NCBI RefSeq assembly: GCF_949987515.2
Contig: NC_082694.2
Location: 46,214,451-46,278,450 of the forward strand
Direction of reading: 5' to 3'
Length of the DNA: 64,000 nt
Source of the DNA: Delphinus delphis
Lineage: Eukaryota; Chordata; Mammalia; Artiodactyla; Delphinidae
Shown here: one piece after another, positions 1-64,000 of the stretch
Layout of the letters: each line of letters starts with the position of its first letter
How positions within the stretch are numbered: position 1 is the stretch's first letter
Notes under the pieces: model-generated
Told to the model about the DNA's origin: nothing
Databases searched by the model: none
The model's input: only the letters and a program-made list of their open reading frames with translations
Program-made: the position numbers and the translations under genes

Positions 1-3000
1 TTAGGGTTAGGGGACGGGGACGGGTTAGGGTCCAGGTGAGGATATGACAACGCTTTAGGGGGAGCGTACGTGTGAGGGCGCAGGTTAGTGTTAGCGTACG
101 GGTTAGGATTAGGGGAAGGCTGAGGGTCAGGCTTCGGGGAAGGGTTAGGGTTAGGGTTCGGGCTAGGGTTAGGGTGAGGGGACGGGGACGGTTTAGGGTC
201 CAGGTGAGGGTACAACAACGCTTTAGGGGGAGCGTACGTGTGAGGGCGCGGGTTAGTGTTAGCGTACGGGTTAGGATTAGGGGACAGCTGAGGGTCAGGC
301 TTCGGGGAAATGTTAGGGTTAGGGTTCGGGCTAGGGTTAGGGTAAGGGGACGGGGACGGTTTAGGGTCCAGGTGAGGGTACGACAACGCTTTAGGGGGAG
401 CGTACGTGTGAGGACGCGGGTTAGTGTTAGCGTACGGGTCAGGATTAGGGGACGGGTGAGGTTCAGGCTTCGGGGAAGTGTTAGGGTTCGGGCTAGGGTT
501 AGGGTTAGGGGACGGGAACGGTTTAGGGTTCAGGTGAGGGTACAACAATGCTTTAGTGGGAGCGTACGTGTGAGGGCGCGGGTAAGTGTTAGCGTACGGG
601 TTAGGATTAGGGGACAGCTGAGGGTCAGGCTTCGGGGAAGGGTTAGGGTTGTGGTTCGGGCTAGGGTTAGGGTTAGGGGACGGGGACGGTTTAGGGTCCA
701 GGTGAGGGTACGACAACAGTTTAGGCGGAGCGTACGTGTGAGGGCGCGGGTTAGTGTTCGCGTACGGGTTACGATTAGGGGACGGCTGAGGGTCAGGCTT
801 CGGGGAAGGGTTAGGGTTAGGGTTCGGCCTAGGGTTAGGGTTAGGGGACGGGGACCGTTTAGGGTCCAGGTGAGGGTACGACAACGCTTTAGGGGGAGCC
901 TACGTGTGAGGGCGCGGGTTAGTGTTAGCGTACGGGTTAGGATTAGGGGACGGGTGAGGGTCAGGCTTCCGGAAAGGGTTAGGGTTAGGGTTCGTGCTAG
1001 TGTTAGGGTTAGGGGACGGGGACGGTTTAGGGTCCAGGTGAGGGTACCACAATGCTTTAGGGGGAGCGTACGTGGGAGGGCGCGGGTAAGTGTTAGCGTA
1101 CGGGTTAGGATTAGGGGACGGCTGAGGGTCAGGCTTCGGGGAAGGGTTAGGGTTAGGGTTCGGCCTAGGGTTAGGGTTAGGGGACGGGGACGGTTTAGGG
1201 TCCAGGTGAGGGCACGACAACGCTTTATGGGGCGCGTATGTGTGAGGGCGCGGGTTAGTGTTAGCTTACGGGTTAGGATTATGGGATGGGTGAGGGTCAG
1301 GCTTCGGGGAAGGGTTAGGGTTAGGGTTTGGCCTAGGGTTAGGGTTAGGGGACGGGGACGGTTTAGGGTCCAGAAGAGGGTATGACAACGCTTTAGGGGG
1401 AGCGTACGTGTGAGGGCGCAGGTTAGTGTTAGCATACGGCTTAGGATTAGGGGACAGGTGAGGGTCAGGCTTCGGGGAAGGCTTAGGGTTAGGGTTCGGC
1501 CTGGGTTAGGGGACGGGGACGGTTTAGGGTCCAGGTGAGGGTACGACAACGCTTTAGGGGGAGCGTACGTGTGAGGGCGCGGGTTAGTGTTAGCGTACGG
1601 GTTAGGATTAGGGGACGGCTGAGGGTCAGGCTTCGGGGAAGGGTTAGGGTTAGGGTTCGGGCTAGGGTTAGGGTTAGGGGGCGGGGACGGTTTAGGGTCC
1701 AGGTGAGGGTACGACAACGCTTTAGGGGGAGCCTACGTGTGAGGGCGCGGGTTAGTGTTAGCGTATGGGTTAGGATTAGGGGACGGGTGAGGGTTAGGCT
1801 TCGGGGAAGTGTTAGGGTTAGTGTTCGGGCTAGGGTTAGGGTTAGGGGACGGGGACGGTTTAGGGTCCAGGTGAGGGTACGACAACGCTTTAGGAGGGGC
1901 GTACGTGTGAGGGCGCGGGTTAGTGTTAGCGTACGGGTTAGGATTAGGGGACGGCTGAGGGTCAGGCTTCGGGGAAGTGTTAGGGTTAGGGTTCGGGCTA
2001 GGGTTAGGGTTAGGGGACGGGGACGGTTTAGGGTCCAGGTGAGGGTACGACAACGCTTTAGGGGGAGCGTACGTGTGAGGGCGCGGGTTAGTGTCAGCGT
2101 ACGGGTTAGGATTAGGGGACGGGTGAGGGTCAGGCTTCGGGGAAGGGTTAGGGTTAGGGTTCGGGCTAGGGTTAGGGTTAGGGGACGGGGACGGTTTAGG
2201 GTCCAGGTGAGGGTACGAGAACGCTTTAGGGGGAGCGTACGTGTGAGGGCGCGGGTTAGTGTTAGCGTACGGGTTAGGATTAGGGGACGTGTGAGGGTCA
2301 GGCTTCGGGGAAGGGTTAGGTTTAGGGTTCGGGCTAGGGTTAGGGTTAGGGGACGGAGACGGTTTAGGGTCCAGGTGAGGGTACGACAACGCTTTAGGGG
2401 GAGCGTACGTGTCAGGGCGTGGGTTAGTGTTAGCGTACGGGTTAGGATTAGGGGACGGCTGAGGGTCAGGCTTTCGGGAAGGGTTAGGGTTAGGGTTCGG
2501 GCTAGGGTTAGGGTTAGGGGACGGGGAAGGTTTAGGGTCCAGGTGAGGGTACGACAACGGTTTTGGGGGAGCGTACGTGTCAGGGCGCGTGTTAGTGTTA
2601 GCGTGTGGGTTTGGATTAGGGGACGGCTGAGGGTCAGGCTTTGGGGAAGGGTTAGGGTTAGGGTTCGGGCTAGGGTTAGGGTTAGGGGACGGGGACGGTT
2701 TAGGGTCCAGGTGAGGGTACGACAACGCTTTAGGGGGAGCGTACGTGTGAGGGCGCGGGTAAGTGTTAGCGTACGGGTTAGGATTAGGGTACAGCTGAGG
2801 GTCAGGCTCCGGGGAAGGGTTAGGGTTAGGGTTCGGGCTAGGGTTAGGGTTAGGGGACGGGGACGGTTTAGGGTCCAGGTGAGGGTACGACAACGTTTTA
2901 GGGGGAGCGTACGTGTGAGGGCGCGGGTTAGTGTTAGCGTACGGGTTAGGATTAGGGGACGGGTGAGGGTCAGGCTTCGGGGAAGGGTTAGGGTTAGGGT

Positions 3001-5570: not shown

Positions 5571-5574
5571 GGGT

Positions 5575-15230: not shown

Positions 15231-15364
15231 TGAGGGTACGAAAACGCTTTAGGGGGAGCGTACGTGTGAGGGCGCGGGTTAGTGTTAGCGTACGGGTTAG
15301 GATTAGGGGACGGCTGAGGGTCAGGCTTCGGGGAAGGGTTAGGGTTAGGGTTCGGGCTAGGGTT

Positions 15365-20000: not shown

Positions 20001-22147
20001 AGGCTGCGGGGAAGGGTTAGGGTTAGGGTTCGGGCTAGGGTTAGGGTTAGGGGACGGGGACGGTTTAGGGTCCAGGTGAGGGTACGACAACGCTTTAGGG
20101 GGAGCGTACGTGTGAGGGCGCGGGTTAGTGTTAGCGTACGGGTTAGGATTAGGGGACGGCTGAGGGTCAGGCTTCGGGGAAGGGTTAGGGTTAGGGTTCG
20201 GGCTAGGGTTAGGGGACGGGGACGGTGTAGGGTCCAGGTGAGGGTACGACAACTCTTTAGGGGGAGAGTACGTGTGAGGGCGCGGGTTAGTGTTAGCGTA
20301 CGGGTTAGGATTAGGGGACGCCTGAGGGTCAGGCTTCGGGGAAGGGTTAGGGTTAGGGTTCGGGCTAGGGTTAGGGTTAGGGGACGGGGACGGTTTAGTG
20401 TACAGGTGAGGGTACGACAACGCTTTAGGGGGAGCGTACGTGTGAGGGCGCGGGTTAGTGTTAGCGTACGGGTTAGGATTAGGGGACGGGTGAGGGTCAG
20501 GCTTCGGGGAAGGGTTACGGTTAGGGTTCGGGCTAGGGTTAGGGTTAGGGGACGGGGACGGTTTAGGGTCCAGGTGAGGGTACGACAACGCTTTAGGGGG
20601 AGCGTACGTGTGAGGGCGCGGGTTAGTGTTAGCGTACGGTTTAGGATTAGGGGACGGGTGAGGGTCAGGCTTCGGGGAAGGGTTAGGGTTAGGGTTCGGG
20701 CTAGGGTTAGGGTTAGGGGACGGGGACGGTTTAGGGTCCAGGTGAGGGTACGACAACGCTTTAGGGGGAGCGTACGTGTGAGGGCGCGGGTTAGTGTTAG
20801 CGTATGGGTTAGGATTAGGGGACGGCTGAGGGTCAGGCTTCGGGGAAGGGTTAGGGTTAGGGTTCGGCCTAGGGTTAGGGTTAGGGGACGGGGACGGTTT
20901 AGGGTCCAGGTGAGGGTACGACAACGCTTTAGGGGGAGCGTACGTGTGAGGGCGCGGGTTAGTGTTAGCGTATGGGTTAGGATTAGGGGACGGCTGAGGG
21001 TCAGGCTTCGGGGAAGGGTTAGGGTTAGGGTTCGGCCTAGAGTTAGGGTTAGGGGACGGGGACGGTTTAGGGTCCAGGTAAGGGTACGACAACGCTTTAG
21101 GGGGAGCGTACGTGTGAGGGCGCGGGTTAGTGTTAGCGTACAGGTTAGGATTAGGGGACAGGTGAGGGTCAGGCTTCGGGGAAGGCTTAGGGTTAGGTTT
21201 CGGCCTGGGTTAGGGTACGGGGACGGTTTAGGGTCCAGGTAAGGGTACGACAACGCTTTAGGGGGAGCGTACGTGTGAGGGCGTGGGTTAGTGTTAGCGT
21301 GCGGGTTAGGATTAGGGGACGGGTGAGGGTCAGGCTGCGGGGAAGGGTTAGGGTTAGGGTTCGGGCTAGGGTTAGTGTTAGGGGACGGGGACGGTTTAGG
21401 GTCCAGGTGAGGGTACGACAACGCTTTAGGGGGAGCGTACGTGTGAGGGCGCGGGTTAGTGTTAGCGTACGGGTTAGGATTAGGGGACGGCTGAGGGTCA
21501 GGCTTCGGGGAAGGGTTAGGGTTAGGGTTCGGGCTAGGGTTAGGGGACGGGGACGGCGTAGGGTCCAGGTGAGGGTACGACAACTCTTTAGGGGGAGAGT
21601 ACGTGTGAGGGCGCGGGTTAGTGTTAGCGTACGGGTTAGGATTAGGGGACGCCTGAGGCTCAGGCTTCGGGGAAGGGTTAGGGTTAGGGTTCGGGCTAGG
21701 GTTAGGGTTAGGGGACGGGGACGGTTTAGTGTCCAGGTGAGGGTACGACAACGCTTTAGGGGGAGCGTACGTGTGAGGGCGCGGGTTAGTGTTAGCGTAC
21801 GGGTTAGGATTAGGGGACGGGTGAGGGTCAGGCTTCGGGGAAGGGTTACGGTTAGGGTTCGGGCTAGGGTTAGGGTTAGGGGACGGGGACGGTTTAGGGT
21901 CCAGGTGAGGGTACGACAACGCTTTAGGGGGAGCGTACGTGTGAGGGCGCGGGTTAGTGTTAGCGTACGGTTTAGGATTAGGGGACGGGTGAGGGTCAGG
22001 CTTCGGGGAAGGGTTAGGGTTAGGGTTCGGGCTAGGGTTAGGGTTAGGGGACGGGGACGGTTTAGGGTCCAGGTGAGGGTACGACAACGCTTTAGTGGGA
22101 GCGTACGTGTGAGGGCGCGGGTTAGTGTTAGCGTACGGGTTAGGATT
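19860..22147 (+). repeat. Block X, first pair (two tandem copies, 1331-bp spacing)
   Basis: Each copy opens with the ggcctgggttagggtacg junction (about 19872 and 21203), followed by gttagcgtgcgg and aggctgcgggg. It then runs through a monomer with one hexamer lost (about 20206), the pair caactcttta and gggagagtacg, gacgcctgag, and tttagtgt. The spacing is 1331 bp, which is eight monomers minus 13 bp (7 bp at the junction plus one hexamer). The second copy ends close to 22.15 kb, where block Y starts. Confidence 0.85.
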
Positions 22148-23599
22148 ATGGGATGGGTGAGGGTCAGGCTTCGGGGAAGGTTTAGGGTTAGGGTTCGGGC
22201 TAGGGTTAGGGTTAGGGGACGGGGACGGTTTAGGGTCCAGGTGAGGGTATTACAACGTTTTAGGGGGAGCATACGTGTGAGGGCGCAGGTTAGTGTTAGC
22301 GTACGGGTTAGGATTAGGGGACGGGTGAGGGTCAGGCTTCGGGGAAGGGTTAGGGTTAGGGTTCGGGCTAGGGTTAGGGTTAGGGGACGGGGACGGTTTA
22401 GGGTCCAGGTGAGGGTACGACAACGCTTTAGGGGGAGCGTACGTGTGAGGGGGCGGGTTAGTGTTAGCGTACGGGTTAGGATTACGGGACGGGTGAGGGT
22501 CAGGCTTCGGGGAACGGTTAGGGTTAGGGTTCGGGCTAGGGTTAGGGTTAGGGGACGGGGACGGTTTAGGGTCCAGGTGAGGGTACGACAACGCTTTAGG
22601 GGGAGCGTACGTGTGAGGGCGCGTGTTAGTGTTAGCGTACGGGTTAGGATTAGGGGACGGGTGAGGGTCAGGCTTCAGGGAAGGCTTAGGGTTAGAGTTC
22701 GGGCTAGGGTTAGGGTTACGGGACGGGGACGGTTTAGGGTGCAGGTGAGGGTACGACAACGCTTTAGGGGGAGCGTACGTGTGAGGGCGCGGGTTAGTGT
22801 TAGCGTACGGGTTAGGATTAGGGGACGGCTGAGGGTCAGGCTTCGGGGAAGGGTTAGGGTTAGGGTTCGGGCTAGTGTTAGGATTAGGGGACGGGGACGG
22901 TTTAGGGTCCAGGTGAGGGTACGACAACGCTTTAGGCGGAGCGTATGTGTGAGGGCGCAGGTTAGTGTTAGCGTACGGGTTAGGATTAGGGGACGGCTGA
23001 GGGTCAGGCTTTGGGGAAGGGTTAGGGTTAGGGTTCGGGCTAGGGTTAGGGTTAGGGGACGGGGACGGTTTAGGGTCCAGGTGAGGGTACGACAACGCTT
23101 TAGGGGGAGCGTACATGTGAGGGCGCGGGTTAGTGTTAGCGTACGGGTTAGGATTATGGGACGGGTGAGGGTCAGGCTTCGGGGAAGGGTTAGGGTTAGG
23201 GTTCGGGCTAGGGTTAGGGTTAGGGGACGGGGACGGTTTAGGGTCCAGGTGAGGGTACGACAACGCTTTAGGGGGAGCGTACGTGTGAGGGGGCGGGTTA
23301 GTGTTAGCGTACGGGTTAGGATTAGGGGACGGGTGAGGGTCAGGCTTCGGGGAACGGTTAGGGTTAGGGTTCGGGCTAGGGTTAGGGTTAGGGGACGGGG
23401 ACCGTTTAGGGTCGAGGTGAGGGTACGACAACGCTTTAGGGGGAGCGTACGTGTGAGGGCGCGGGTTAGTGTTAGCGTACGGGTTAGGATTAGGGGACGG
23501 GTGAGGGTCAGGCTTCGGGGAAGGGTTAGGGTTAGGGTTCGGGCTAGGGTTAGGGTTAGGGGACCGGGACGGTTTAGGGTCCAGCTGAGTGTACGACAA

Positions 23600-28301: not shown

Positions 28302-28589
28302 CGCTTTAGGGGGAGCGTACGTGTGAGGGCGCGGGTTAGTGTTAGCGTACGGGTTAGGATTAGGGGACGGGTGAGGGTCAGGCTTCGGGGAAGGGTTAGG
28401 GTTAGGGTTCGGGCTAGGGTTAGGGTTAGGGGACGGGGACGGTTTAGGGTCCAGGTGAGGGTACGACAACGCTTTAGGGGGAGCGTACGAGTGAGGGCGC
28501 GGGTTAGTGTTAGCGTACGGGTTAGGATTAGGGGACGGCTGAGGGTCAGGCTTCGGGGAAGGGTTAGGGTTAGGGTTCGGGCTAGGGTT

Positions 28590-31500: not shown

Positions 31501-32000
31501 CGTGTGAGGGGGCTGGTTAGTGTTAGAGTACGGGTTAGGATTGGGGACGGGTGAGGGTCAGGCTTCGAGGAAGGGTTAGGGTTAGGGTTCGGGCTAGGGT
31601 TAGGGTTAGGGGACGGGGACGGTTTAGGGTCCAGGTGAGGGTACGACAACGCTTTAGGGGGAGCGTACATGTGAGGGCGCGGGTTAGTGTTAGCGTACGG
31701 GTTAGGATTAGGGGACGGGTGAGGGTCAGGCTTCGGGGAAGGGTTAGGGTTAGGGTTCGGGCTAGGGTTAGGGTTAGGGGACGGGGACGGTTTAGGGTCC
31801 AGGTGAGGGTACGACAACGCTTTAGGGGGAGCGTACGTGTGAGGGCGCGGGTTAGTGTTAGCGTACGGGTTAGGATTACGGGACGGGTGAGGGTCAGGCT
31901 TCGGGGAAGGGTTAGGGTTAGGGTTCGGGCTAGGGTTAGGGTTAGGGGACGGGGACGGTTTAGGGTCCAGGTGAGGGTACGACAACGCTTTAGGGGGAGC
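28590..32000 (+). repeat. Right half of block Y, copy 1
   Basis: Landmarks are the 1-bp loss ttggggacagg at about 28594, 29097 and 30266; caggcttagggg at about 28716, 29219 and 30388; gtgtatgacacgc at about 29298; gtgatggcg about 29665; taggatcc about 29788; gtgcgacaac about 30131; gggtagggtgag about 31296; and gggggctgg about 31510. The first two losses are 503 bp apart (three monomers minus 1). This half is the source or relative of several partial copies further right. Confidence 0.8.
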
Positions 32001-32043
32001 GTATATGTGAGGGCGCGGGTTAGTGTTAGCGTACGGGTTAGGA

Positions 32044-36310: not shown

Positions 36311-36439
36311 AGGTGAGGGTACGACAACTCTTTAGGGGGAGCGTACGTGTGAGGGCGCGGGTTAGTGTTAGCGTACGGGTTAGGATTAGGGGACGGGTGA
36401 GGGTCAGGCTTCGGGGAAGGGTTAGGGTTAGGGTTCGGG

Positions 36440-45720: not shown

Positions 45721-46028
45721 TTAGCGTACGGGTTAGGATTAGGGGACGGGTTAGGGTCAGGCTTCGGGGAAGGGTTAGGGTTAGGGTTCGGGCTAGGGTT
45801 AGGGTTAGGGGACGGGAATGGTTTAAGGTCCAGGTGAGGGTACGACAACGCTTTAGGGGGAGCGTACGTGTGAGGACGCGAGTTAGTGTTAGCGTACGGG
45901 TTAGGATTAGGGGACGGCTGAGGGTCAGGCTTCGGGGAAGGGTTAGGGTTAAGGTTCGGGCTAGGGTTAGGGTTAGGGGACGGGGACCGTTTAGGGTCGA
46001 GGTGAGGGTACGACAACGCTTTAGGGGG

Positions 46029-49000
46029 AGCGTACGTGTGAGGGCGCGGGTTAGTGTTAGCGTACGGGTTAGGATTATGGGATGGGTGAGGGTCAGGCTT
46101 CGGGGAAGGTTTAGGGTTAGGGTTCGGGCTAGGGTTAGGGTTAGGGGACGGGGACGGTTTAGGGTCCAGGTGAGGGTATTACAACGCTTTAGGGGGAGCA
46201 TACGTGTGAGGGCGCGGGTTAGTGTTAGCGTACGGGTTAGGATTAGGGGACGGGTGAGGGTCAGGCTTCGGGGAAGGGTTAGGGTTAGGGTTCGGGCTAG
46301 GGTTAGGGTTAGGGGACGGGGACGGTTTAGGGTCCAGGTGAGGGTACGACAACGCTTTAGGGGGAGCGTACGTGTGAGGGGGCGGGTTAGTGTTAGCGTA
46401 CGGGTTAGGATTACGGGACGGGTGAGGGTCAGGCTTCGGGGAACGGTTAGGGTTAGGGTTCGGGCTAGGGTTAGGGTTAGGGGACGGGGACGGTTTAGGG
46501 TCCAGGTGAGGGTACGACAACGCTTTAGGGGGAGCGTACGTGTGAGGGCGCGTGTTAGTGTTAGCGTACGGGTTAGGATTAGGGGACGGGTGAGGGTCAG
46601 GCTTCAGGGAAGGCTTAGGGTTAGGGTTCGGGCTAGGGTTAGGGTTAGGGGACGGGGACGGTTTAGGGTGCAGGTGAGGGTACGACAACGCTTTAGGGGG
46701 AGCGTACGTGTGAGGGCGCGGGTTAGTGTTAGCGTACGGGTTAGGATTAGGGGACGGCTGAGGGTCAGGCTTCGGGGAAGGGTTAGGGTTAGGGTTCGGG
46801 CTAGTGTTAGGATTAGGGGACGGGGACGGTTTAGGGTCCAGGTGAGGGTACGACAACGCTTTAGGCGGAGCGTATGTGTGAGGGCGCAGGTTAGTGTTAG
46901 CGTACGGGTTAGGATTAGGGGACGGCTGAGGGTCAGGCTTTGGGGAAGGGTTAGGGTTAGGGTTCGGGCTAGGGTTAGGGTTAGGGGACGGGGACGGTTT
47001 AGGGTCCAGGTGAGGGTACGACAACGCTTTAGGGGGAGCGTACATGTGAGGGCGCGGGTTAGTGTTAGCGTACGGGTTAGGATTATGGGACGGGTGAGGG
47101 TCAGGCTTCGGGGAAGGGTTAGGGTTAGGGTTCGGGCTAGGGTTAGGGTTAGGGGACGGGGACGGTTTAGGGTCCAGGTGAGGGTACGACAACGCTTTAG
47201 GGGGAGCGTACGTGTGAGGGGGCGGGTTAGTGTTAGCGTACGGGTTAGGATTAGGGGACGGGTGAGGGTCAGGCTTCGGGGAACGGTTAGGGTTAGGGTT
47301 CGGGCTAGGGTTAGGGTTAGGGGACGGGGACCGTTTAGGGTCGAGGTGAGGGTACGACAACGCTTTAGGGGGAGCGTACGTGTGAGGGCGCGGGTTAGTG
47401 TTAGCGTACGGGTTAGGATTAGGGGACGGGTGAGGGTCAGGCTTCGGGGAAGGGTTAGGGTTAGGGTTCGGGCTAGGGTTAGGGTTAGGGGACCGGGACG
47501 GTTTAGGGTCCAGCTGAGTGTACGACAACGCTTTATGGGGCGCGTACGTGTGAGGGCGCAGGTTAGTGTTAGCGTACGGGTTAGGATTATGGGATGGGTG
47601 AGGGTCAGGCTTCGGGGAAGGTTTAGGGTTAGGGTTCGGGCTAGGGTTAGGGTTAGGGGACGGGGACGGTTTAGGGTCCAGGTGAGGGTATTACAACGCT
47701 TTAGGGGGAGCGTACGTGTGAGGGCGCAGGTTAGTGTTAGCGTACGGGTTAGGATTAGGGGACGGCTGAGGGTCAGGCTTCGGGGAAGGGTTAGGGTTAG
47801 GGTTCGGGCTAGGGTTAGGGTTAGGGGACGGGGACGGTTTAGGGTCCAGGTGAGGGTACGACAACGCTTTAGGGGGAGCGTACGTGTGAGGGGGCGGGTT
47901 AGTGTTAGCGTACGGGTTAGGATTACGGGACGGGTGAGGGTCAGTCTTCGGGGAACGGTTAGGGTTAGGGTTCGGGCTAGGGTTAGGGTTAGGGGACGGG
48001 GACGGTTTAGGGTCCAGGTGAGGGTACGACAACGCTTTAGGGGGAGCGTACGTGTGAGGGCGCGTGTTAGTGTTAGCGTACGGGTTAGGATTAGGGGACG
48101 GGTGAGGGTCAGGCTTCAGGGAAGGCTTAGGGTTAGGGTTCGGGCTAGGGTTAGGGTTAGGGGACGGGGACGGTTTAGGGTGCAGGTGAGGGTACGACAA
48201 CGCTTTAGGGGGAGCGTACGTGTGAGGGCGCGGGTTAGTGTTAGCGTACGGGTTAGGATTAGGGGACGGCTGAGGGTCAGGCTTCGGGGAAGGGTTAGGG
48301 TTAGGGTTCGGGCTAGTGTTAGGATTAGGGGACGGGGACGGTTTAGGGTCCAGGTGAGGGTACGACAACGCTTTAGGCGGAGCGTATGTGTGAGGGCGCA
48401 GGTTAGTGTTAGCGTACGGGTTAGGATTAGGGGACGGCTGAGGGTCAGGCTTTGGGGAAGTGTTAGTGTTAGGGTTCGGGCTAGGGTTAGGGTTAGGGGA
48501 CGGGGACGGTTTAGGGTCCAGGTGAGGGTACGACAACGCTTTAGGGGGAGCGTACATGTGAGGGCGCGGGTTAGTGTTAGCGTACGGGTTAGGATTAGGG
48601 GACGGGTGAGGGTCAGGCTTCGGGGAAGGGTTAGGGTTAGGGTTCGGGCTAGGGTTAGGGTTAGGGGACGGGGACGGTTTAGGGTCCAGGTGAGGGTACG
48701 ACAACGCTTTAGGGGGAGCGTACGTGTGAGGGGGCGGGTTAGTGTTAGCGTACGGGTTAGGATTAGGGGACGGGTGAGGGTCAGGCTTCGGGGAACGGTT
48801 AGGGTTAAGGTTCGGGCTAGGGTTAGGGTTAGGGGACGGGGACGGTTTAGGGTCCAGGTGAGGGTACGACAACGCTTTAGGGGGAGCGTACGTGTGAGGG
48901 CGCGTGTTAGTGTTAGCGTACGGGTTAGGATTAGGGGATGGGTGAGGGTCAGGCTTCAGGGAAGGCTTAGGGTTAGGGTTCGGGCTAGGGTTAGGGTTAG

Positions 49001-52000
49001 GGGACGGGGACGGTTTAGGGTGCAGGTGAGGGTACGACAACGCATTAGGGGGAGCGTACGTGTGAGGGCGCGGGTTAGTGTTAGCGTACGGGTTAGGATT
49101 AGGGGACGGCTGAGGGTCAGGCTTCGGGGAAGGGTTAGGGTTAGGGTTCGGGCTAGTGTTAGGATTAGGGGACGGGGACGGTTTAGGGTCCAGGTGAGGG
49201 TACGACAACGCTTTAGGCGGAGCGTATGTGTGAGGGCGCAGGTTAGTGTTAGCGTACGGGTTAGGATTAGGGGACGGCTGAGGGTCAGGCTTTGGGGAAG
49301 TGTTAGTGTTAGGGTTCGGGCTAGGGTTAGGGTTAGGGGACGGGGACGGTTTAGGGTCCAGGTGAGGGTACGACAACGCTTTAGGGGGAGCGTACATGTG
49401 AGGGCGCGGGTTAGTGTTAGCGTACGGGTTAGGATTAGGGGATGGGTGAGGGTCAGGCTTCGGGGAAGGGTTAGGGTTAGGGTTCGGGCTAGGGTTAGGG
49501 TTAGGGGACGGGGACGGTTTAGAGTCCAGGTGATGGTACGAAAATGCTTTAGGGGGAGCGTACGTGTGAGGGCGCGGGTTAGTGTTAGAGTACGGATTAG
49601 GATAAGGGGACGGCTGAGGGTCAGGCTTCGGGGAAGGGCTAGGTTTAGGGTTCGGGCTAGGGTTAGGGTTGGGGACGCGGACGGTTTAGGGTCCAGGTGA
49701 GGGTACGACAACGCTTTAGGGGGAGGGTTCGTGTGAGGGCGTGGGTCAGTGTTAGCATACGGGTTAGGATTAGGGGACGGGTGAGGGTCAGGCTTCGGGG
49801 AAGGGTTAGGGTTAGGGTTCGGGCTAGGGTTAGGGTTAGGGGACCGGGACGGTTTAGGGTCCAGCTGAGTGTACGACAACGCTTTATGGGGCGCGTACGT
49901 GTGAGGGCGCAGGTTAGTGTTAGCGTACGGGTTAGGATTATGGGATGGGTGAGGGTCAGGCTTCGGGGAAGGTTTAGGGTTAGGGTTCGGGCTAGGGTTA
50001 GGGTTAGGGGACGGGGACGGTTTAGGGTCCAGGTGAGGGTATTACAACGCTTTAGGGGGAGCGTACGTGTGAGGGCGCAGGTTAGTGTTAGCGTACGGGT
50101 TAGGATTAGGGGACGGCTGAGGGTCAGGCTTCGGGGAAGGGTTAGGGTTAGGGTTCGGGCTAGGGTTAGGGTTAGGGGACGGGGACGGTTTAGGGTCCAG
50201 GTGAGGGTACGACAACGCTTTAGGGGGAGCGTACGTGTGAGGGGGCGGGTTAGTGTTAGCGTACGGGTTAGGATTACGGGACGGGTGAGGGTCAGTCTTC
50301 GGGGAACGGTTAGGGTTAGGGTTCGGGCTAGGGTTAGGGTTAGGGGACGGGGACGGTTTAGGGTCCAGGTGAGGGTACGACAACGCTTTAGGGGGAGCGT
50401 ACGTGTGAGGGCGCGTGTTAGTGTTAGCGTACGGGTTAGGATTAGGGGACGGGTGAGGGTCAGGCTTCAGGGAAGGCTTAGGGTTAGGGTTCGGGCTAGG
50501 GTTAGGGTTAGGGGACGGGGACGGTTTAGGGTGCAGGTGAGGGTACGACAACGCTTTAGGGGGAGCGTACGTGTGAGGGCGCGGGTTAGTGTTAGCGTAC
50601 GGGTTAGGATTAGGGGACGGCTGAGGGTCAGGCTTCGGGGAAGGGTTAGGGTTAGGGTTCGGGCTAGTGTTAGGATTAGGGGACGGGGACGGTTTAGGGT
50701 CCAGGTGAGGGTACGACAACGCTTTAGGCGGAGCGTATGTGTGAGGGCGCAGGTTAGTGTTAGCGTACGGGTTAGGATTAGGGGACGGCTGAGGGTCAGG
50801 CTTTGGGGAAGTGTTAGTGTTAGGGTTCGGGCTAGGGTTAGGGTTAGGGGACGGGGACGGTTTAGGGTCCAGGTGAGGGTACGACAACGCTTTAGGGGGA
50901 GCGTACATGTGAGGGCGCGGGTTAGTGTTAGCGTACGGGTTAGGATTAGGGGACGGGTGAGGGTCAGGCTTCGGGGATGGGTTAGGGTTAGGGTTCGGGC
51001 TAGGGTTAGGGTTAGGGGACGGGGACGGTTTAGGGTCCAGGTGAGGGTACGACAACGCTTTAGGGGGAGCGTACGTGTGAGGGGGCGGGTTAGTGTTAGC
51101 GTACGGGTTAGGATTAGGGGACGGGTGAGGGTCAGGCTTCGGGGAACGGTTAGGGTTAGGGTTCGGGCTAGGGTTAGGGTTAGGGGACGGGGACGGTTTA
51201 GGGTCCAGGTGAGGGTACGACAACGCTTTAGGGGGAGCGTACGTGTGAGGGCGCGTGTTAGTGTTAGCGTACGGGTTAGGATTAGGGGATGGGTGAGGGT
51301 CAGGCTTCAGGGAAGGCTTAGGGTTAGGGTTCGGGCTAGGGTTAGGGTTAGGGGACGGGGACGGTTTAGGGTGCAGGTGAGGGTACGACAACGCTTTAGG
51401 GGGAGCGTACGTGTGAGGGCGCGGGTTAGTGTTAGCGTACGGGTTAGGATTAGGGGACGGCTGAGGGTCAGGCTTCGGGGAAGGGTTAGGGTTAGGGTTC
51501 GGGCTAGTGTTAGGATTAGGGGACGGGGACGGTTTAGGGTCCAGGTGAGGGTACGACAACGCTTTAGGCGGAGCGTATGTGTGAGGGCGCAGGTTAGTGT
51601 TAGCGTACGGGTTAGGATTATGGGACGGCTGAGGGTCAGGCTTTGGGGAAGTGTTAGTGTTAGGGTTCGGGCTAGGGTTAGGGTTAGGGGACGGGGACGG
51701 TTTAGGGTCCAGGTGAGGGTACGACAACGCTTTAGGGGGAGCGTACATGTGAGGGCGCGGGTTAGTGTTAGCGTACGGGTTAGGATTAGGGGATGGGTGA
51801 GGGTCAGGCTTCGGGGAAGGGTTAGGGTTAGGGTTCGGGCTAGGGTTAGGGTTAGGGGACGGGGACGGTTTAGAGTCCAGGTGATGGTACGAAAATGCTT
51901 TAGGGGGAGCGTACGTGTGAGGGCGCGGGTTAGTGTTAGAGTACGGATTAGGATAAGGGGACGGCTGAGGGTCAGGCTTCGGGGAAGGGCTAGGTTTAGG

Positions 52001-55000
52001 GTTCGGGCTAGGGTTAGGGTTGGGGACGCGGACGGTTTAGGGTCCAGGTGAGGGTACGACAACGCTTTAGGGGGAAGGTTCGTGTGAGGGCGTGGGTCAG
52101 TGTTAGCATACGGGTTAGGATTAGGGGACGGGTGAGGGTCAGGCTTCGGGGAAGGTTTAGGGTTAGGGTTCGGGCTAGGGTTAGGGTTAGGGGACGGGGA
52201 CCGTTTACGGTCCAGGTGAGGGTACGACAACGCTTTAGGGGGAGCGTACGTGTGAGGGCGCGGGTTAGTGTTAGCGTACGGGTTAGGATTAGGGGACGGG
52301 TGAGGGTCAGGCTTCGGGGAAGGGTTAGGGTTAGGGTTCGGGCTAGGGTTAGGGTTAGGGGACGGGGACGGTTTAGGGTCCAGGTGAGGGTACGACAACG
52401 CTTTAGGGGGAGCGTACGAGTGAGGGCGCGGGTTAGTGTTAGCGTACGGGTTAGGATTAGGGGACGGCTGAGGGTCAGGCTTCGGGGAAGGGTTAGGGTT
52501 AGGGTTCGGGCTAGGGTTAGGGTTGGGGACAGGGACGGTTTAGGGTCCAGTTGAGGGTACGACAACGCTTTAGGGGGAGCGTACGTGTGAGGGCGTGGGT
52601 TAGTGTTAGCGTACGGATTAGGATTAGGGGACGGCTGAGGGTCAGGCTTAGGGGAAGGGTTAGGGTTAGGGTTCGGGCTAGGGTTAGGGTTAGGGGACGG
52701 GGACGGTTTAGGGTCCAGGTGAGGGTACGACAACGCTTTAGGGGGAGCGTACGTGTGAGGGCGCGGGTTAGTGTTAGCGTACGGGTTAGGATTAGGGGAC
52801 GGGTGAGGGTCAGGCTTCGGGGAAGGGTTAGGGTTAGGGTTCGGGCTAGGGTTAGGGTTAGGGGACGGGGACTGTTTAGGGTCCAGGTAAGGGTACGACA
52901 ACGCTTTAGGGGGAGCGTACGTGTGAGGGCGCGTGTTAGTGTTAGCGTACGGGTTAGGATTAGGGGACGGGTGAGGGTCAGGCTTTGGGGAAGGGTTAGG
53001 GTTAGGGTTCGGGCTAGGGTTAGGGTTGGGGACAGGGACGGTTTAGGGTCAAGTTGAGGGTACGACAACGCTTTAGGGGGAGCGTACGTGTGAGGGCGTG
53101 GGTTAGTGTTAGCGTACGGATTAGCATTAGGGGACGGCTGAGGGTCAGGCTTAGGGGAAGGGTTAGGGTTAGGGTTCGGGCTAGGGTTAGGGTTAGGGGA
53201 CGGGGACGGTTTAGGGTCCAGGTGAGTGTATGACACGCTTTAGGGGGAGCGTACGTGTGAGGGCGCGGGTTAGTGTTAGCGTACGGGTTAGGATTAGGGG
53301 ACGGGTGAGGGTCAGGCTTCGGGGAAGGGTTAGGGTTAGGGTCCGGGCTAGGGTTAGGGTTAGGGGACGGGGACGGTTTAGGGTCCAGGTGAGGGTACGA
53401 CAACGCTTTAGGGGGAGCGTACGTGTGAGGGCGCGGGTTAGTGTTAGCGTACGGGTTAGGATTAGGGGACGGGTGAGGGTCAGGCTTCGGGGAAGGGTTA
53501 GGGTTAGGGTTCGGGCTAGGGTTAGGGTTAGGGGACGGGGACGGTTTAGGGTCCAAGTGAGGGTACGACAACGCTTTAGGGGGAGCGTACGTGTGATGGC
53601 GCGGGTTAGTGTTAGCGTACGGGTTAGGATTAGGGGACGGCTGAGTGTCAGGCTTTGGGGAAGGGTTAGGGTTAGGGTTCGGGCTAGGGTTAGGGTTAGG
53701 GGACGGGGACGGTTTAGGATCCAGGTGAGGGTACAACAACGCTTTAGGGGGAGAGTACGTGTGAGGGCGCGGGTTAGTGTTAGCGTACGGGTTAGGATTA
53801 GGGGACGGGTGAGGGTCAGGCTTCGGGGAAGGGTTAGGGTTAGGGTTCGGGCTAGGGTTAGGGTTAGGGGACGGGGACAGTTTAGGGTCCAGGTGAGGGT
53901 ACGACAACGCTTTAGGGGAAGCGTTCGTGTGAGGGTGCGGGTTAGTGTTAGCGTACGGGTTAGTATTAGGGGACGGGTGAGGGTTAGGCTTCGGGGAAGG
54001 GTTAGGGTTAGTGTTCGGGCTAGGGTTAGGGGACGGGGACGGTTTGGGGTCCAGGTGAGGGTGCGACAACGCTTTAGGGGGAGCGTACGAGTGAGGGCGC
54101 GGGTTAGTGTTAGCGTACGGGTTAGGATTAGGGGACGGCTGAGGGTCAGGCTTCGGGGAAGGGTTAGGGTTAGGGTTCGGGCTAGGGTTAGGGTTGGGGA
54201 CAGGGACGGTTTAGGGTCCAGTTGAGGGTACGACAACGCTTTAGGGGGAGCGTACGTGTGAGGGCGTGGGTTAGTGTTAGCGTACGGATTAGGATTAGGG
54301 GACGGCTGAGGGTCAGGCTTAGGGGAAGGGTTAGGGTTAGGGTTCGGGCTAGGGTTAGGGTTAGGGGACGGGGACGGTTTAGGGTCCAGGTGAGGGTACG
54401 ACAACGCTTTAGGGGGAGCGTACGTGTGAGGGCGCGGGTTAGTGTTAGCGTACGGGTTAGGATTAGGGGACGGGTGAGGGTCAGGCTTCGGGGAAGGGTT
54501 AGGGTTAGGGTTCGGGCTAGGGTTAGGGTTAGGGGACGGGGACGGTTTAGGGTCCAGGTAAGGGTACGACAACGCTTTAGGGGGAGCGTACGTGTGAGGG
54601 CGCGTGTTAGTGTTAGCGTACGGCTTAGGATTAGGGGACGGGTGAGGGTCAGGCTTCGGGGAAGGGTTAGGGTTAGGGTTCGGGCTAGGGTTAGGGTTAG
54701 GGGACGGGGACGGTTTAGGGTCCAGGTGAGGGTACGACAACGCTTTAGGGGGAGCGTACGTGTGAGGGCGCGGGTTAGTGTTAGCGTACGGGTTAGGATT
54801 AGGGGACGGCTGAGGGTCAGGCTTCGGGGAAGGGTTAGGGTTAGGGTTCGGGCTAGGGTTAGGGTTAGGGGACGGGGACGGTTTAGGGTCCAGGTGAGGG
54901 TACGACAACGCTTTAGGGGGAGCGTACGTGTGAGGGCGCGGGTTAGTGTTAGCGTACGGGTTAGGATTAGGGGACGGGTGAGGGTCAGGCTTCGGGGAAG

Positions 55001-55972
55001 GGTTAGGGTTAGGGTTCGGGCTAGGGTTAGGGTTAGGGGACGGGGACGGTTTAGGGTCCAGGTGAGGGTACGACAACGCTTTAGGGGGAGCGTACGTGTG
55101 AGGGCGCGGGTTAGTGTTAGCGTACGGGTTAGCATTAGGGGACGGGTGAGGGTCAGGCTTCGGGGAAGGGTTAGGGTTAGGGTTCGGGCTAGGGTTAGGG
55201 TTAGGGGACGGGGACCGTTTAGGGTAGGGTGAGGGTACGACAACGCCCTAGGGGGAGAGTACGTGTGAGGGCGCAGGTTAGTGTTAGCCTACGGGTTAGG
55301 ATTAGGGGACGGGTGAGGGTCAGGCTTCGGGGAAGTGTTAGGGTTAGGGTTGGGGCTAGGGTAAGGTTTAGGTGACGGGGACGGTTTAGGGTCTAGGTGA
55401 GGGTACGACAACGCTTTAGGGGGAGCGTACGTGTGAGGGGGCTGGTTAGTGTTAGAGTACGGGTTAGGATTGGGGACGGGTGAGGGTCAGGCTTCGAGGA
55501 AGGGTTAGGGTTAGGGTTCGGGCTAGGGTTAGGGTTAGGGGACGGGGACGGTTTAGGGTCCAGGTGAGGGTACGACAACGCTTTAGGGGGAGCGTACATG
55601 TGAGGGCGCGGGTTAGTGTTAGCGTACGGGTTAGGATTAGGGGACGGGTGAGGGTCAGGCTTCGGGGAAGGGTTAGGGTTAGGGTTCGGGCTAGGGTTAG
55701 GGTTAGGGGACGGGGACGGTTTAGGGTCCAGGTGAGGGTACGACAACGCTTTAGGGGGAGCGTACGTGTGAGGGCGCGGGTTAGTGTTAGCGTACGGGTT
55801 AGGATTACGGGACGGGTGAGGGTCAGGCTTCGGGGAAGGGTTAGGGTTAGGGTTCGGGCTAGGGTTAGGGTTAGGGGACGGGGACGGTTTAGGGTCCAGG
55901 TGAGGGTACGACAACGCTTTAGGGGGAGCGTATATGTGAGGGCGCGGGTTAGTGTTAGCGTACGGGTTAGGA
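46029..55972 (+). repeat. Block Y, copy 2 (offset 23,929 bp, nearly identical)
   Basis: This matches 22.10-32.04 kb at a constant offset of 23,929 bp, including all insertions, deletions and the two full 14-monomer units (starting about 47529 and 49880). Differences noticed by eye number only about ten. Examples, copy 1 to copy 2: about 22257 t to c; about 22286 a to g; about 22695 and 22718; about 24627 c to a; a ttaggg/gacggg exchange at about 27756; about 28685 a to c; about 28868 t to g; and about 30119 a to g at 54048. That is about 99.9% identity over 9.9 kb. Its left neighbour is not X, unlike copy 1. Confidence 0.9.
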
Positions 55973-57410
55973 TTAGGGGACGGCTGAGGGTCAGGCTTCG
56001 GGGAAGGGTTACGGTTAGGGTTCGGGCTAGGGTTAGGGTTAGGGGACGGGGACGGTTTAGGGTCCAGGTGAGGGTACGACAACGCTTTAGGGGGAGCGTA
56101 CGTGTGAGGGCGCGGGTTAGTGTTTGCGTACGGGTTAGGATTAGGGGACGGCTGAGGGTCAGGCTTCGGGGAAGGGTTAGGGTTAGGGTTCGGGCTAGGG
56201 TTAGGGTTAGGGGACGGGGACGGTTCAGGGTCCAGGTGAGGGTACGACAACACTTTAGGGGGAGCGTACGTGTGAGGGTGCGGGTTAGTGTTAGCGTACG
56301 GTTTAGGATTAGGGGACAGCTGAGGGTCAGGCTTCGGGGAAGGGTTAGGGTTAGGGTTCGGGCTAGGGTTAGGGTTCGGGCACGGGGACGGTTTAGGGTC
56401 CAGGTGAGGGAACGACAACGCTTTAGGGGGAGCGTACGTGTGAGGGCGCGGGTTAGTGTTAGCGTACGGGTTAGGATTAGGGGACGGGTGAGGGTCAGGC
56501 TTCGGGGAAGGGTTAGGGTTAGGGTTCGGGCTAGGGTTAGGGTTAGGGGACGGGGACGGTTTAGGGTCCAGGTGAGGGTACGACAACGCTTTAGGGGGTG
56601 CGTACGTGTGAGGGCGCGGGTTAGTGTTAGCGTACGGGTTAGGATTAGGGGACGGCTGAGGGTCAGGCTTCGGGGAAGGGTTAGGGTTAGGGTTCGGGCT
56701 AGGGTTAGGCTTAGGGGACGGGGACGGTTTAGGGTCCAGGTGAGGGTACGACAACGCTTTAGGGGGAGCGTACGTGTGAGGGCGCGGGTTAGTGTTAGCG
56801 TACGGGTTAGGATTAGCGGACGGGTGAGGGTCAGGCTTCCGGGAAGGGTTAGGGTTAGGGTTCGGGCTAGGGTTAGGGTTAGGGGACGGGGACGGTTTAG
56901 GGTCCACGTGAGGGTACGACAACGCTTTAGGGGGAGCGTACGTGTGAGGGCGCGGGTTAGTGTTAGAGTACGGGTTAGGATTAGGGGACGGGTGAGGGTC
57001 AGGCTTCGAGGAAGGGTTAGGGTTAGGGTTCGGGCTAGAGTTAGGGTTAGGGGACGGGGACGGTTTAGGATCCAGGTGAGGGTACAACAACGCTTTAGGG
57101 GGAGCGTACGTGTGAGGGCGCGGGTTAGTGTTAGCGTACGGGTTAGGATTAGGGGACGGGTGAGGGTCAGGCTTCGGGGAAGGGTTAGGTTTAGGGTTAG
57201 GGTTAGGGTTAGGGGACGGTTTAGGGTCCGGGTGAGGGTACAACAACGCTTTAGGGGAAGCGTACATGTGAGGGCGCGGGTTACTGTTAGCGTACGGGTT
57301 AGTATTAGGGGACGGGTGAGGGTTAGGCTTCGGGGAAGGGTTAGGGTTAGGGTTCGGGCACGGGGACGGTTTAGGTTCCAGGTGAGGGTGCGACAACGCT
57401 TTAGGGGGAG
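55973..57410 (+). repeat. Segment right of block Y copy 2
   Basis: These monomers are absent next to Y copy 1. Landmarks are gtttgcgtacg (about 56122), ggttcaggg (about 56223), acagctgag (about 56325), gggcacgggg with gagggaacgac (about 56387-56420), ggtccacgtg (56901), taggatcc (about 57065) and gtgcgacaac (57389). The last part, 57.05-57.4 kb, resembles 53.7-54.1 kb. The 56.1-56.9 kb part recurs near 59.9 kb (offset 3488 bp at the gaacgac mark) and near 63.3-63.7 kb (offset 7158 bp). Confidence 0.75.
57191..57214 (+). repeat. Longest perfect telomeric run noticed (four TTAGGG)
   Basis: Four perfect ttaggg hexamers in a row occur here because the usual ttcggg and ctaggg are missing or converted. 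Elsewhere the run is two, occasionally three (about 60674). Long uninterrupted telomere repeats are absent from the window, so it is not the chromosome end itself. Confidence 0.85.
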
Positions 57411-59730: not shown

Positions 59731-62022
59731 TACGACAACGCTTTAGGGGGAGCATACGTGTGAGGGCAAGGGTTAGTGTTAGCCTACGGTTTAGTATTAG
59801 GTGACGGCTGAGGTTCAGGCTTCGGGGAAGGGTTAGGGTTAGGGTTCGGGCTAGGGTTAGGGTTCGGGCACGTGGACGGTTTAGGGTCCAGGTGAGGGAA
59901 CGACAACGCTTTAGGGGGAGCGTACGTGTGAGGGCGCGGGTTAGTGTTAGCGTACGGGTTAGGATTAGGGGACGGGTGAGGGTCAGGCTACGGGGAAGGG
60001 TTAGGGTTACGGCTCGGGCTAGGGTTAGGGTTAGGGGACGGGGACGGTTTAGGGTCCACGTGAGAGTACGACAACGCTTTAGGGGGAGCATACGTGTGAG
60101 GGCGCGGGTTAGTGTTAGCGTACGGGTTAGGTTTAGGGAACGGGTGAGGGTCAGGCTTCGGGGAAGGGTTAGGGTTAGGGTTCGGGCTAGGGTTAGAGTT
60201 AGGGGACGGGGACGGTTTAGGGTCCAGGTGAGGGTACGACAACGCTTTAGGGGGAGTGTACGTGTGAGGGCGCGGGTTAGTGTTAGCGTACGGGTTACGA
60301 TTAGGGGACGGGTGAGGGTCAGGCTTCGGGGAAGGGTTAGGGTTAGGGTTCGGGCTAGGGTTAGGGTTAGGAGACGGGGACGGTTTAGGGTCCAGGTGAG
60401 GGTACGACAACGCTTTAGGGGGAGCGTACGTGTGAGGGCGCGGGTTAGTGTTAGCGTACGGGTTAGGATTAGGGGACGGGTGAGCGTCAGGCTTCAGGGA
60501 AGGGTTAGGGTTAGGGTTCGGGCTAGGGTTAGGGTTAGGTGATGGGGACGGTTGAGGGTCCAGGTGAGGGTACGACAACGCTTTAGGGGGAGCGTACGTG
60601 TGAGGGCGCGGGTTAGTGTTAGCGTACGGGTTAGGATTAGGGGACGGCTGAGGGTCAGGCTTCGGGGAAGGGTTAGGGTTAGGGTTAGGGGACGGGGACG
60701 GTTTAGGGTCCAGGTGAGGGTACGACAACGCTTTAGGGGGAGCGTACGTGTGAGGTCGCGGGTTAGTGTTAGCGTACGGGTTAGGATTAGGGGACGGGTG
60801 AGGGTCAGGATTCGGGGAAGGGTTCGGGTTAGGATTCGGGCTAGGGTTAGGGTTAGGGGACGGGGACGGTTTAGGGTCCAGGTGAGGGTACGACAACGCT
60901 TTAGGGGGAGCGTACGTATGAGGGCGCGGGTTAGTGTTAGCGTACGGGTTAGGATTAGGGGACGGGTGAGGGTCAGGCTTCGGGGAAGGGTTAGGGTTAG
61001 GGTTCGGGCTAGGGATAGGGTTAGGGGACGGGGACGGTTTAGGGTCCAGGTGAGGGTACGACAACGCTTTAGGGGGAGCGTACGTGTGAGGGCACGGATT
61101 AGTGTTAGCGTACGGTTTAGGATTAGGGGACGGCTGAATGTCAGGCTTCGGGGAAGGGTTAGGGTTAGGGTTCGGGCTAGGGTTAGGGTTAGGGGACGGG
61201 GACGGTTTAGGGTCCAGGTGAGGGTACGACAACGCTTTAGGGGGAGCGTACGTGTGAGGGCGCGGGTTAGTGTTAGCGTACGGGTTAGGATTACGGGACG
61301 GGTGAGGGTCAGGCTTCGGGGAAGGGTTAGGGTTAGGGTTCGGGCTAGGGTTAGGGTTAGGGGACGGGGACGGTTTAGGGTCCAGGTGAGGGTACGACAA
61401 CGCTTTAGGGGGAGCGTACGTGTGAGGGCACGGGTTAGTGTTAGCGTACGGGTTAGGATTAGGGGACGGGTGAGGGTCAGGCTTCGGGGAAGGGTTAGGG
61501 TTAGGGTTCGGGCTAGGGTTAGGGTTAGGGGACGGGGACGGTTTAGGGTCCAGGTGAGGGTACGACAACGCTTTAGGGGGAGCGTACGTGTGAGGGCGCG
61601 GGTTAGTGTTAGCGTACGGGTTAGGATTAGGGGACGGCTGAGGGTCAGGCTTCGGGGAAGGGTTAGGGTTAGGGTTCGGGCTAGGGTTAGGGTTAGGGGA
61701 CGGGGACGGTTTAGGGTCCAGGTGAGGGTACGACAACGCTTTAGGGGGAGCGTACGTGTGAGTGCGCGGGTTAGTGTTAGCGTACGGGTTAGGATTAGGG
61801 GACGGCTGAGGGTCAGGCTTCGGGGAAGGGTTAGGGTTAGGGTTCGGGCTAGGGTTAGGGTTAGCGGACGGGGACGGTTTAGGGTCCAGGTGAGGGTACG
61901 ACAACGCTTTAGGGGGAGCGTACGTGTGAGGGCGCGGGTTAGTGTTAGCGTACGGGTTAGGATTAGGGGACGGCTGAGGGTCAGGCTTCGGGGAAGGGTT
62001 AGGGTTAGGGTTCGGGCTAGGG

Positions 62023-62190: not shown

Positions 62191-62208
62191 TTAGGGTTAG
62201 GGGACGGG
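62155..62208 (+). other. Representative G-quadruplex-capable tract, repeated in nearly every monomer
   Basis: Hexamers 23-28 and the next monomer's 1-3 give nine consecutive GGG tracts, each separated by exactly three bases (ttc, gaa, tta, tta, ttc, cta, tta, tta, gac). Four such tracts are enough for the well-known telomeric three-layer G-quadruplex, so each monomer could hold up to two side by side, with i-motif potential on the C-rich strand. The tract recurs every 168 bp, so there are roughly 380 of them in the window. Some monomers lose part of it, for example near 6185, 12190 and 60680 where 18 bp are missing. Folding in the cell is inferred. Confidence 0.85.
62167..62193 (+). promoter_or_regulatory. 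Representative TRF-type Myb binding sites (YTAGGGTTR) in each monomer
   Basis: The shelterin proteins TRF1 and TRF2 bind YTAGGGTTR. In the reference monomer there are matches at 62167-62175 (ttagggtta), 62185-62193 (ctagggtta) and 62023-62031 (ttagggtta), so each consensus monomer carries three. All lie in the conserved telomere-like stretch, while hexamers 6-17 carry none. The match to the consensus is seen. Whether the host has TRF-type proteins and whether they bind here is inference. Confidence 0.5.
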
Positions 62209-64000
62209 GACGGTTTAGGGTCCAGGTGAGGGTACGACAACGCTTTAGGGGGAGCGTACGTGTGAGGGCGCGGGTTAGTGTTAGCGTACGGGTTAGCATT
62301 AGGGGACGGGTGAGGGTCAGGCTTCGGGGAAGGGTTAGGGTTAGGGTTCGGGCTAGGGTTAGGGTTAGGGGACGGGGACCGTTTAGGGTAGGGTGAGGGT
62401 ACGACAACGCTTTAGGGGGAGCGTACGTGTGAGGGCGCAGGTTAGTGTTAGCCTACGGGTTAGGATTAGGGGACGGGTGAGGGTCAGGCTTCGGGGAAGT
62501 GTTAGGGTTAGGGTTGCGGCTAGGGTAAGGTTTAGGTGACGGGGACGGTTTAGGGTCTAGGTGAGGGTACGACAACGCTTTAGGGGGAGCGTACGTGTGA
62601 GGGCGCTGGTTAGTGTTAGAGTACGGGTTAGGATTGGGGACGGGAGAGGGTCAGGCTTCGAGGAAGGGTTAGGGTTAGGGTTCGGGCTAGGGTTAGGGTT
62701 AGGGGACGGGGACGGTTTAGGGTCCAGGTGAGGGTACGACAACGCTTTAGGGGGAGCGTACATGTGAGGGCGCGGGTTAGTGTTAGCGTACGGGTTAGGA
62801 TTAGGGGACGGGTGAGGGTCAGGCTTCAGGGAAGGGTTAGGGTTAGGGTTCGGGCTAGGGTTAGGGGACGGGGACGGTTTAGGGTCCAGGTGAGGGTACG
62901 ACAACGCTTTAGGGGGAGCGTACGTGTGAGGGCGCGGGTTAGTGTTAGCGTACGGGTTAGGATTACGGGACGGGTGAGGGTCAGGCTTCGGGGAAGGGTT
63001 AGGGTTAGGGTTCGGGCTAGGGTTAGGGTTAGGGGACGGGGACGGTTTAGGGTCCAGGTGAGGGTACGACAACGCTTTAGGGGGAGCGTACATGTGAGGG
63101 CGCGGGTTAGTGTTAGCGTACGGGTTAGGATTAGGGGACGGCTGAGGGTCAGGCTTCGGGGAAGGGTTAGGGTTAGGGTTCGGGCTAGGGTTAGGGTTAG
63201 GGGACGGGGACGGTTTAGGGTCCAGGTGAGGGTATGACAACGCTTTAGGGGGAGCGTACGTGTGAGGGCGCGGGTTAGTGTTTGCGTACGGGTTAGGATT
63301 AGGGGACGGCTGAGGGTCAGGCTTCGGGGAAGGGTTAGGGTTAGGGTTCGGGCTAGGGTTAGGGTTAGGGGACGGGGACGGTTCAGGGTCCAGGTGAGGG
63401 TACGACAACACTTTAGGGGGAGCGTACGTGTGAGGGTGCGGGTTAGTGTTAGCGTACGGTTTAGGATTAGGGGACAGCTGAGGGTCAGGCTTCGGGGAAG
63501 GGTTAGGGTTAGGGTTCGGGCTAGGGTTAGGGATCGGGCACGGGGACGGTTTAGGGTCCGGGTGAGGGAACGACAACGCTTTAGGGGGAGCGTACGTGTG
63601 AGGGCGCGGGTTAGTGTTAGCGTACGGGTTAGGATTAGGGGACGGCTGAGGGTCAGGCTTCGGGGAAGGGTTAGGGTTAGGGTTCGGGCTAGGGTTAGGG
63701 TTAGGGGACGGGGACGGTTTAGGGTCCACGTGAGGGTACGACAACGCTTTAGGGGGAGCGTACGTGTGATGGCGCAGGTTAGTGTTAGCGTACGGGTTAG
63801 GATTAGGGGACGGCTGAGGGTCAGGCTTCGGGGAAGGGTTAGGGTTAGGGTTCGGGCTAGGGTTAGGGTTAGGGGACGGGGACGGTTTAGGGTCCAGGTG
63901 AGGGTACGACAACGCTTTAGGGGGAGCGTACGTGTGAGGGCGCGGGTTAGTGTTAGCGTACGGGTTAGGATTAAGGGACGGGTGAGGGTCAGGCTTCGGG

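Follow-up and report, generated by a model that had tools for sequence, protein, structure and literature searches.

From what parent did the satellite arise that fills a 64,000-nucleotide stretch of Delphinus delphis (assembly GCF_949987515.2, contig NC_082694.2, positions 46,214,451 to 46,278,450 of the forward strand; this whole stretch is called the window below)? The parents of satellite units are rarely visible, most units having lost the trace, whereas here the parent can be read from a six-base register. The 168-base-pair (bp) unit of the array follows the telomere hexamer TTAGGG in one register from end to end; a telomere origin of the unit is likely from its sequence, and the satellite was probably born from captured telomere variant repeats and amplified by the copying of blocks.

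Positions 1–64,000 form a single head-to-tail array of similar units, as is characteristic of satellite DNA, for which Tandem Repeats Finder (TRF) gives a period of 168, 382.8 copies (about 380 had been estimated beforehand) and a 94% match; the window lies wholly inside the array, both edges of which are outside it. Cyclic alignment of the window to the TRF consensus recovers the same consensus and 383 monomer starts, of which 267 have a length of 168 and 70 a length of 167; the last monomer is cut by the end of the window, and 382 are whole. Base composition is flat along the window (about 60% G+C, with a GC skew of about 0.59), and TTAGGG occurs 2373 times on the forward strand and 0 times on the reverse strand. 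Mean monomer identity to the consensus is 97.1%, and most consensus sites are more than 90% uniform across copies; by alignment columns, 247 of the 382 monomers are distinct and 11 equal the consensus. Identity to the consensus has no trend along the window (Spearman 0.07, P 0.16).

The hexamer register of the 168-bp unit

The divisibility of 168 by six is by itself a one-in-six coincidence, and the evidence lies in the register that the hexamers share. When the consensus is compared with TTAGGG, 122 of its 168 letters match in one register, the other registers giving 64, 34, 13, 37 and 79; with each shuffle scored as the best of its six registers, this value is reached in 0 of 5000 letter shuffles (maximum 80) and 0 of 5000 dinucleotide shuffles (maximum 87). 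The initial annotation, which had cut the monomer into 28 hexamers without remainder, is thereby borne out. Its seven perfect TTAGGG words are found at hexamers 1, 2, 5, 10, 19, 25 and 26, nine more hexamers being one change away, and its remark that most of the others keep the shape nnaGGG or nncGGG just holds, since 11 of the 21 that are not perfect have it, which makes 18 among all 28.

The same register persists through the more degenerate hexamers 6–17, for which the initial annotation had set its refuting condition; the condition fails, for 45 of their 72 letters match, a score found in none of the 5000 shuffles of either kind (maxima 39 for letters and 41 for dinucleotides). Markov models of order 1, 2 and 3 reach the whole-unit score in 0 of 3000 sequences each, and the score of hexamers 6–17 in 0, 0 and 6 of 3000. 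Order-4 models reach it in 37 of 3000 sequences for the whole unit and in 973 of 3000 for hexamers 6–17, as is expected of models of this order, which largely reproduce the unit when trained on so few letters (72 for hexamers 6–17). Moreover, the majority word of the consensus hexamers is TTAGGG, which is also the top scorer among all 4096 hexamers in this register, and all 16 of the words within one mismatch of TTAGGG stand in one common register. In the 21 imperfect hexamers, 29 of 63 TTA letters are kept, against 19.0 expected (8 of 20,000 permutations); the signal is therefore not merely a rhythm of GGG. The corresponding figure for the 11 imperfect hexamers among hexamers 6–17 is weaker, at 15 of 33 against 10.0 expected (300 of 20,000 permutations). 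The poorest words are hexamers 4 and 8, with two letters retained each, and hexamer 9, with one; the register claim is that nothing lies out of register, not that each word is recognizable. The relation to the telomere motif thus extends beyond chance and along the unit, as in a telomere-derived satellite. Satellites of this kind are known, and this one is notable as an example that looks unusually complete, its whole unit being in register without an out-of-register insert.

The construction of the unit from a shorter internal repeat was also considered and rejected: the best lag, 84 bp, is equalled in 452 of 5000 hexamer reorderings at that lag and in 1483 of 5000 at any lag, and the best segment (lag 24) is reached in 224 of 3000.

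Departures from TTAGGG and the growth of the array

Over the 28 hexamers, the letters lost at positions 1 to 6 number 8, 15, 11, 1, 6 and 5, respectively, so that 34 of 84 TTA letters are changed against 12 of 84 GGG letters (Fisher P 0.0002), and position 4 has its G in 27 of the 28 hexamers. At position 3, every one of the 11 changes is from A to C. Furthermore, an A in second place tends to be followed by a C in third, as it is in seven hexamers (7 of 8 vs 4 of 20; Fisher P 0.0019), a pairing which suggests the spread of one variant hexamer. Six of the nine one-change hexamers, namely three TGAGGG, two TTCGGG and one CTAGGG, match named human variants in the available text of PMC3919612 and PMC7073516. 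Human telomere variant repeats, as described there, mostly vary at positions 1–3 and usually retain GGG, and position-2 changes such as TCAGGG and TGAGGG are common in the human proximal telomere (PMC3919612). The unit has the same split, as a bias only, GGG having its own 12 changes; it is the pattern expected if telomere variant repeats were the parent material.

Variation among the present copies takes another form. It was counted in 323 of the 383 monomers, at non-CpG letters in columns that still match TTAGGG and with consensus position 120 excluded; monomers starting in 46000–56007 (a duplicate block) and the last incomplete monomer were left out. In this count GGG letters vary in 474 of 18,932 cases (2.50%) and TTA letters in 138 of 16,013 (0.86%), and among variants found in at most two copies the two are about equal (0.52% and 0.44%). 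Changes of non-CpG A are A to C in 31 of 86 cases. The present variation thus differs in shape from the departures of the unit, and point mutation of the present type can therefore hardly have made the unit from TTAGGG.

This result bears directly on the suggestion that a pure TTAGGG tract decayed passively by point mutation before a 28-hexamer piece of it was amplified. Such ageing would leave both the register and the majority word TTAGGG, and the initial annotation had favoured it in describing the whole monomer as aged telomere sequence. It is unlikely nevertheless, since the departures are concentrated in TTA while position 4 is almost intact, since the A-to-C changes at position 3 create CpG rather than lose it, and since present-day variation has the opposite bias, with almost none among rare variants. 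Of the aged-telomere description, the register stands, the telomere origin is likely and passive decay is not supported; likewise, of the proposed birth from a degenerate telomere stretch that became fixed as a 28-hexamer unit, the capture and the amplification fit the pattern, and simple ageing does not.

Two further observations on the present copies may be recorded. Consensus position 120, in hexamer 20, has two states across the array, 213 of the 382 monomers carrying G and 166 carrying C. Among non-CpG G letters in the same 323 of 383 monomers, changes to T (224 of 22,153) outnumber changes to A (155 of 22,153), which might reflect guanine oxidation in GGG tracts; the excess is gone among variants in at most two copies (27 vs 45) and may be a matter of shared descent.

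Many of the length changes in the array are hexamer-sized, and blocks of it have been copied. Of the 382 whole monomers, 115 are not 168 bp long: one base is missing in 70 and two bases in 2, and the remaining 43 are off by at least 3 bp. Many of these larger changes, 26 of the 43, are multiples of six (in a count not corrected for shared descent). All 16 deletions of exactly six bases are aligned to hexamer 28, and few independent events may therefore be involved. On a larger scale, a block of 10,008 bp recurs 23,929 bp further on (Table 1), and blocks of about 0.6–2.5 kilobases (kb) recur at all seven other lags examined. One of these patterns, at a lag of 2,351 bp, is found inside both copies of the 10-kb block and is therefore probably older than the 10-kb copying. 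The long duplicate may conceivably be a false duplication in the assembly, but simple re-use of the same reads is argued against by its roughly 15 differences in 10 kb. The highest-scoring monomer lag is 143, which is the long block copy, apart from lag 381, which comprises one pair. A strict megablast self-comparison of the window gave no row above 1500 bp and was left unused. A short higher-order repeat was considered as well and rejected, adjacent monomers being 94.5% alike against 94.6% for pairs overall.

Origin of the satellite

The capture of telomere variant repeats, followed by block amplification, would account for these observations as follows. A stretch of approximately 28 hexamers, situated where a telomere ends inwardly or at a telomeric site within the chromosome, would have been copied as one block, at a time when it was a mixture of TTAGGG with variants such as TGAGGG, TTCGGG, CTAGGG and [GT]ACGGG. 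The captured block would then have become a repeat unit, amplified first into a tandem array and afterwards in blocks as long as ten kilobases, which were copied and unequally exchanged. Most likely the array now yields no product and is heterochromatin with methylated CpG, close to a chromosome end or a centromere, in which case its capacity to form G-quadruplexes and its telomere-protein sites would survive as inherited passengers. On this account the spread of the variant, the capture and the block amplification could each be dated by comparison with sister species, and the contrast of a conserved GGG with a variable TTA would offer a simple test in other satellites for distinguishing telomere decay from variant-repeat capture.

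Methylation is suggested by transitions at CpG sites, which are raised to 3.1% for C to T and 3.2% for G to A, compared with 0.9% (C to T) for other C and 0.7% (G to A) for other G, in a count that omits site 120 and keeps the duplicated block. As for the capacities, all 381 G-quadruplex motifs of the 64 kb lie on the G strand, and a run of GGG tracts in 103–198 fits such a motif. All 990 sites of the form YTAGGGTTR, which we take to be a form of telomere-protein site, are on that strand as well. Read from the letters, these are capacities of the DNA.

Several observations weigh against this account. Hexamers 8–9 retain only 3 of 12 letters and may be a short foreign piece. Three of the nine one-change hexamers alter GGG (TTAGTG, TTAGCG and TTAGGA), and changes are most numerous at position 2 (15 of 28), yet the errors of human telomerase fall at positions 1 and 3 according to the available text of PMC3919612. 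Among the 115 monomers of altered length, the loss of a single base is the most frequent change (70 of them), losses of 5 or 11 make up 12 of the 43 larger changes, and the length changes as a whole may be few independent events, with shared descent left in the counts. Where a column of the unit departs from TTAGGG, the telomere letter returns in 89 of 424 variants, and there is therefore no sign of current exchange with the canonical telomere. The CpG excess is confined to variants in at least three copies, those in at most two copies comprising 4 C-to-T and 0 G-to-A changes, and CpG is undepleted (observed/expected 1.27); the absence of an excess among rare variants is expected if few CpG sites change recurrently, and by itself is no proof of methylation. 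Lastly, the telomere origin is a reading of the array sequence.

A second alternative is convergence, in which a G-rich hexamer repeat unrelated to the telomere expanded and merely came to resemble TTAGGG. G-rich hexamer repeats can arise anywhere, and seven hexamers of the unit carry AC and not TA at positions 2–3; still, convergence is quite unlikely when the majority word, obtained blind, is exactly TTAGGG and the best of 4096 in register, when every near match falls in that one register and when TTA is kept beyond what composition predicts. A more far-reaching version of the capture of variant repeats would take the whole unit, free of any out-of-register insert, as a frozen variant-repeat block in an organism with TTAGGG telomeres, situated now at chromosome ends or centromeres and having a working role in telomere-protein binding or recombination-based end maintenance. 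We regard this as very improbable from the sequence; if true, it would document directly how a telomere became a complex satellite. Least probable is that the array itself serves as a working chromosome end that binds telomere proteins and is maintained by recombination, as the long Chironomus end satellites are, for although the single strand orientation throughout, the G-strand YTAGGGTTR sites and G-quadruplex motifs, and the hexamer gain and loss with block copying would all suit it, the same features follow from descent alone, the window contains no chromosome end, and 21 of 28 hexamers are non-canonical. In the available text of PMC3919612, moreover, in vitro binding of the proteins TRF1 and TRF2 is reduced by CTAGGG and abolished by TTGGGG.

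Table 1. Positions of the array, its reference unit and features within the window
Feature	Positions	Strand	Basis or remark
Satellite array, 168-bp unit, about 382.8 copies in a single orientation	1..64000	+	TRF, cyclic alignment
First monomer, 168 bp = 28 hexamers; register reference, hexamer 1 starting at base 1	1..168	+	Sequence, alignment
Hexamers 6–17, more degenerate stretch, still in register (45/72 consensus letters)	31..102	+	Alignment, shuffles, Markov
Hexamers 18–28 and hexamers 1–5 of the next monomer, more telomere-like (77/96 consensus letters)	103..198	+	
10,008-bp block, copy 1	22071..32078	+	99.85% identity with copy 2, 23,929 bp on
10,008-bp block, copy 2	46000..56007	+	Lag 23,929
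Longest pure run, four TTAGGG	57191..57214	+	
150-bp monomer, three hexamers shorter	60529..60678	+	

Known systems and searches for relatives or products

Telomere-associated satellites of Chironomus were reportedly treated by Nielsen and Edstrom in 1993. In the description given in PMC9498494 their units are of about 350 bp, against 168 here, they form chromosome ends and they are maintained by recombination; the comparison is one of description. A parallel in pattern is offered by human proximal variant repeats and subtelomeric degenerate TTAGGG blocks, which likewise keep a hexamer register, mostly keep GGG and vary TTA, and which gain and lose repeats by slippage, as the array may also have done (described in parts of PMC7073516, PMC3919612 and PMC8122249). 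TGAGGG, TTCGGG and CTAGGG are common to both, but the human repeats are chromosome-end stretches and not a 28-hexamer unit repeated hundreds of times. In the Chinese hamster, telomeric repeats were likewise amplified into a main satellite component, as heterochromatic interstitial telomeric repeats; the available text of PMC6410037 describes large blocks of them and mentions no fixed longer unit, whereas here the unit is of 168 bp with 46 of 168 letters changed. Classification of the present array with that type, made mainly of canonical TTAGGG, was rejected, 7 of 28 hexamers being canonical and the longest pure run being four.

Other satellites are partly telomeric or alike in length. The monomer of the chaffinch (Fringilla coelebs) satellite of Liangouzov et al. 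2002, as cited in PMC7348932, also contains TTAGGG repeats, by its title in short clusters only as against a whole unit in register here; the presence of that satellite is described there as not directly connected to chromosomal rearrangement. In the bearded dragon, srfclass-30, with 84 copies on scaffold 4, is a larger tandem repeat in which a telomeric repeat is embedded as only part of the unit, a comparison made by description (portions of PMC12360841). Two satellites also have a unit of 168 bp. PFL-MspI of the habu snake is compared by name, length and heterochromatic place alone (from what is available of PMC8466491, PMC8303610 and PMC7397244), and PSAT1 of Petunia is subtelomeric there, its authors finding no degenerate telomere motifs in the portion of PMC10587573 that is available.

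Within the window, Rfam gave no match at the gathering threshold, and no tRNA was found. A centromeric satellite of the CENP-B-box type was rejected, the core of that box having 0 matches on both strands of the window even when two substitutions were allowed. Two exact 23-letter words of the unit had 0 matches in prokaryote genome contigs; words of 23, 24 and 17 letters together with a degenerate pattern had 0 matches in viral contigs; and about four monomers (505–1180), compared with plasmids and phages by BLAST in its distant mode, had none. Literature searches with the unit's own words returned either no paper or, with shorter words, four on unrelated topics (duck microRNAs, maize editing, glioma and CRISPR fragment editing), and not this satellite, and the available parts of the genome papers on bearded dragon and skink contain no 168-bp telomere-like satellite.

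Stop-free frames run to as many as 1658 residues (e.g., 33417–38393 on the reverse strand and 21197–25771 on the forward strand), since 168 is a multiple of three and stops are lacking in three of the six consensus frames; there is no sign that they are translated. Three pieces of such frames (199–200 residues) were compared with proteins, about 7990 candidates being scored for each, and yielded 26, 1 and 10 weak matches. The 15 of these 37 that were examined are all low-complexity runs (PNPN, LTLT and VRVR) and not the satellite. Among the matches, P0004, P0005, P0015, P0022, P0027, P0028, P0031–P0037 and P0040 have PNPN or VRVR runs matching two frames of the array, sometimes within otherwise ordinary-looking proteins; P0004 lists kinesin motor domains, and P0027 is by name from the haptophyte Phaeocystis antarctica. 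Degenerate TTAGGG-like hexamers, when read through, would encode such PNPN or VRVR runs, and stretches of this kind may be common in some protist genes.

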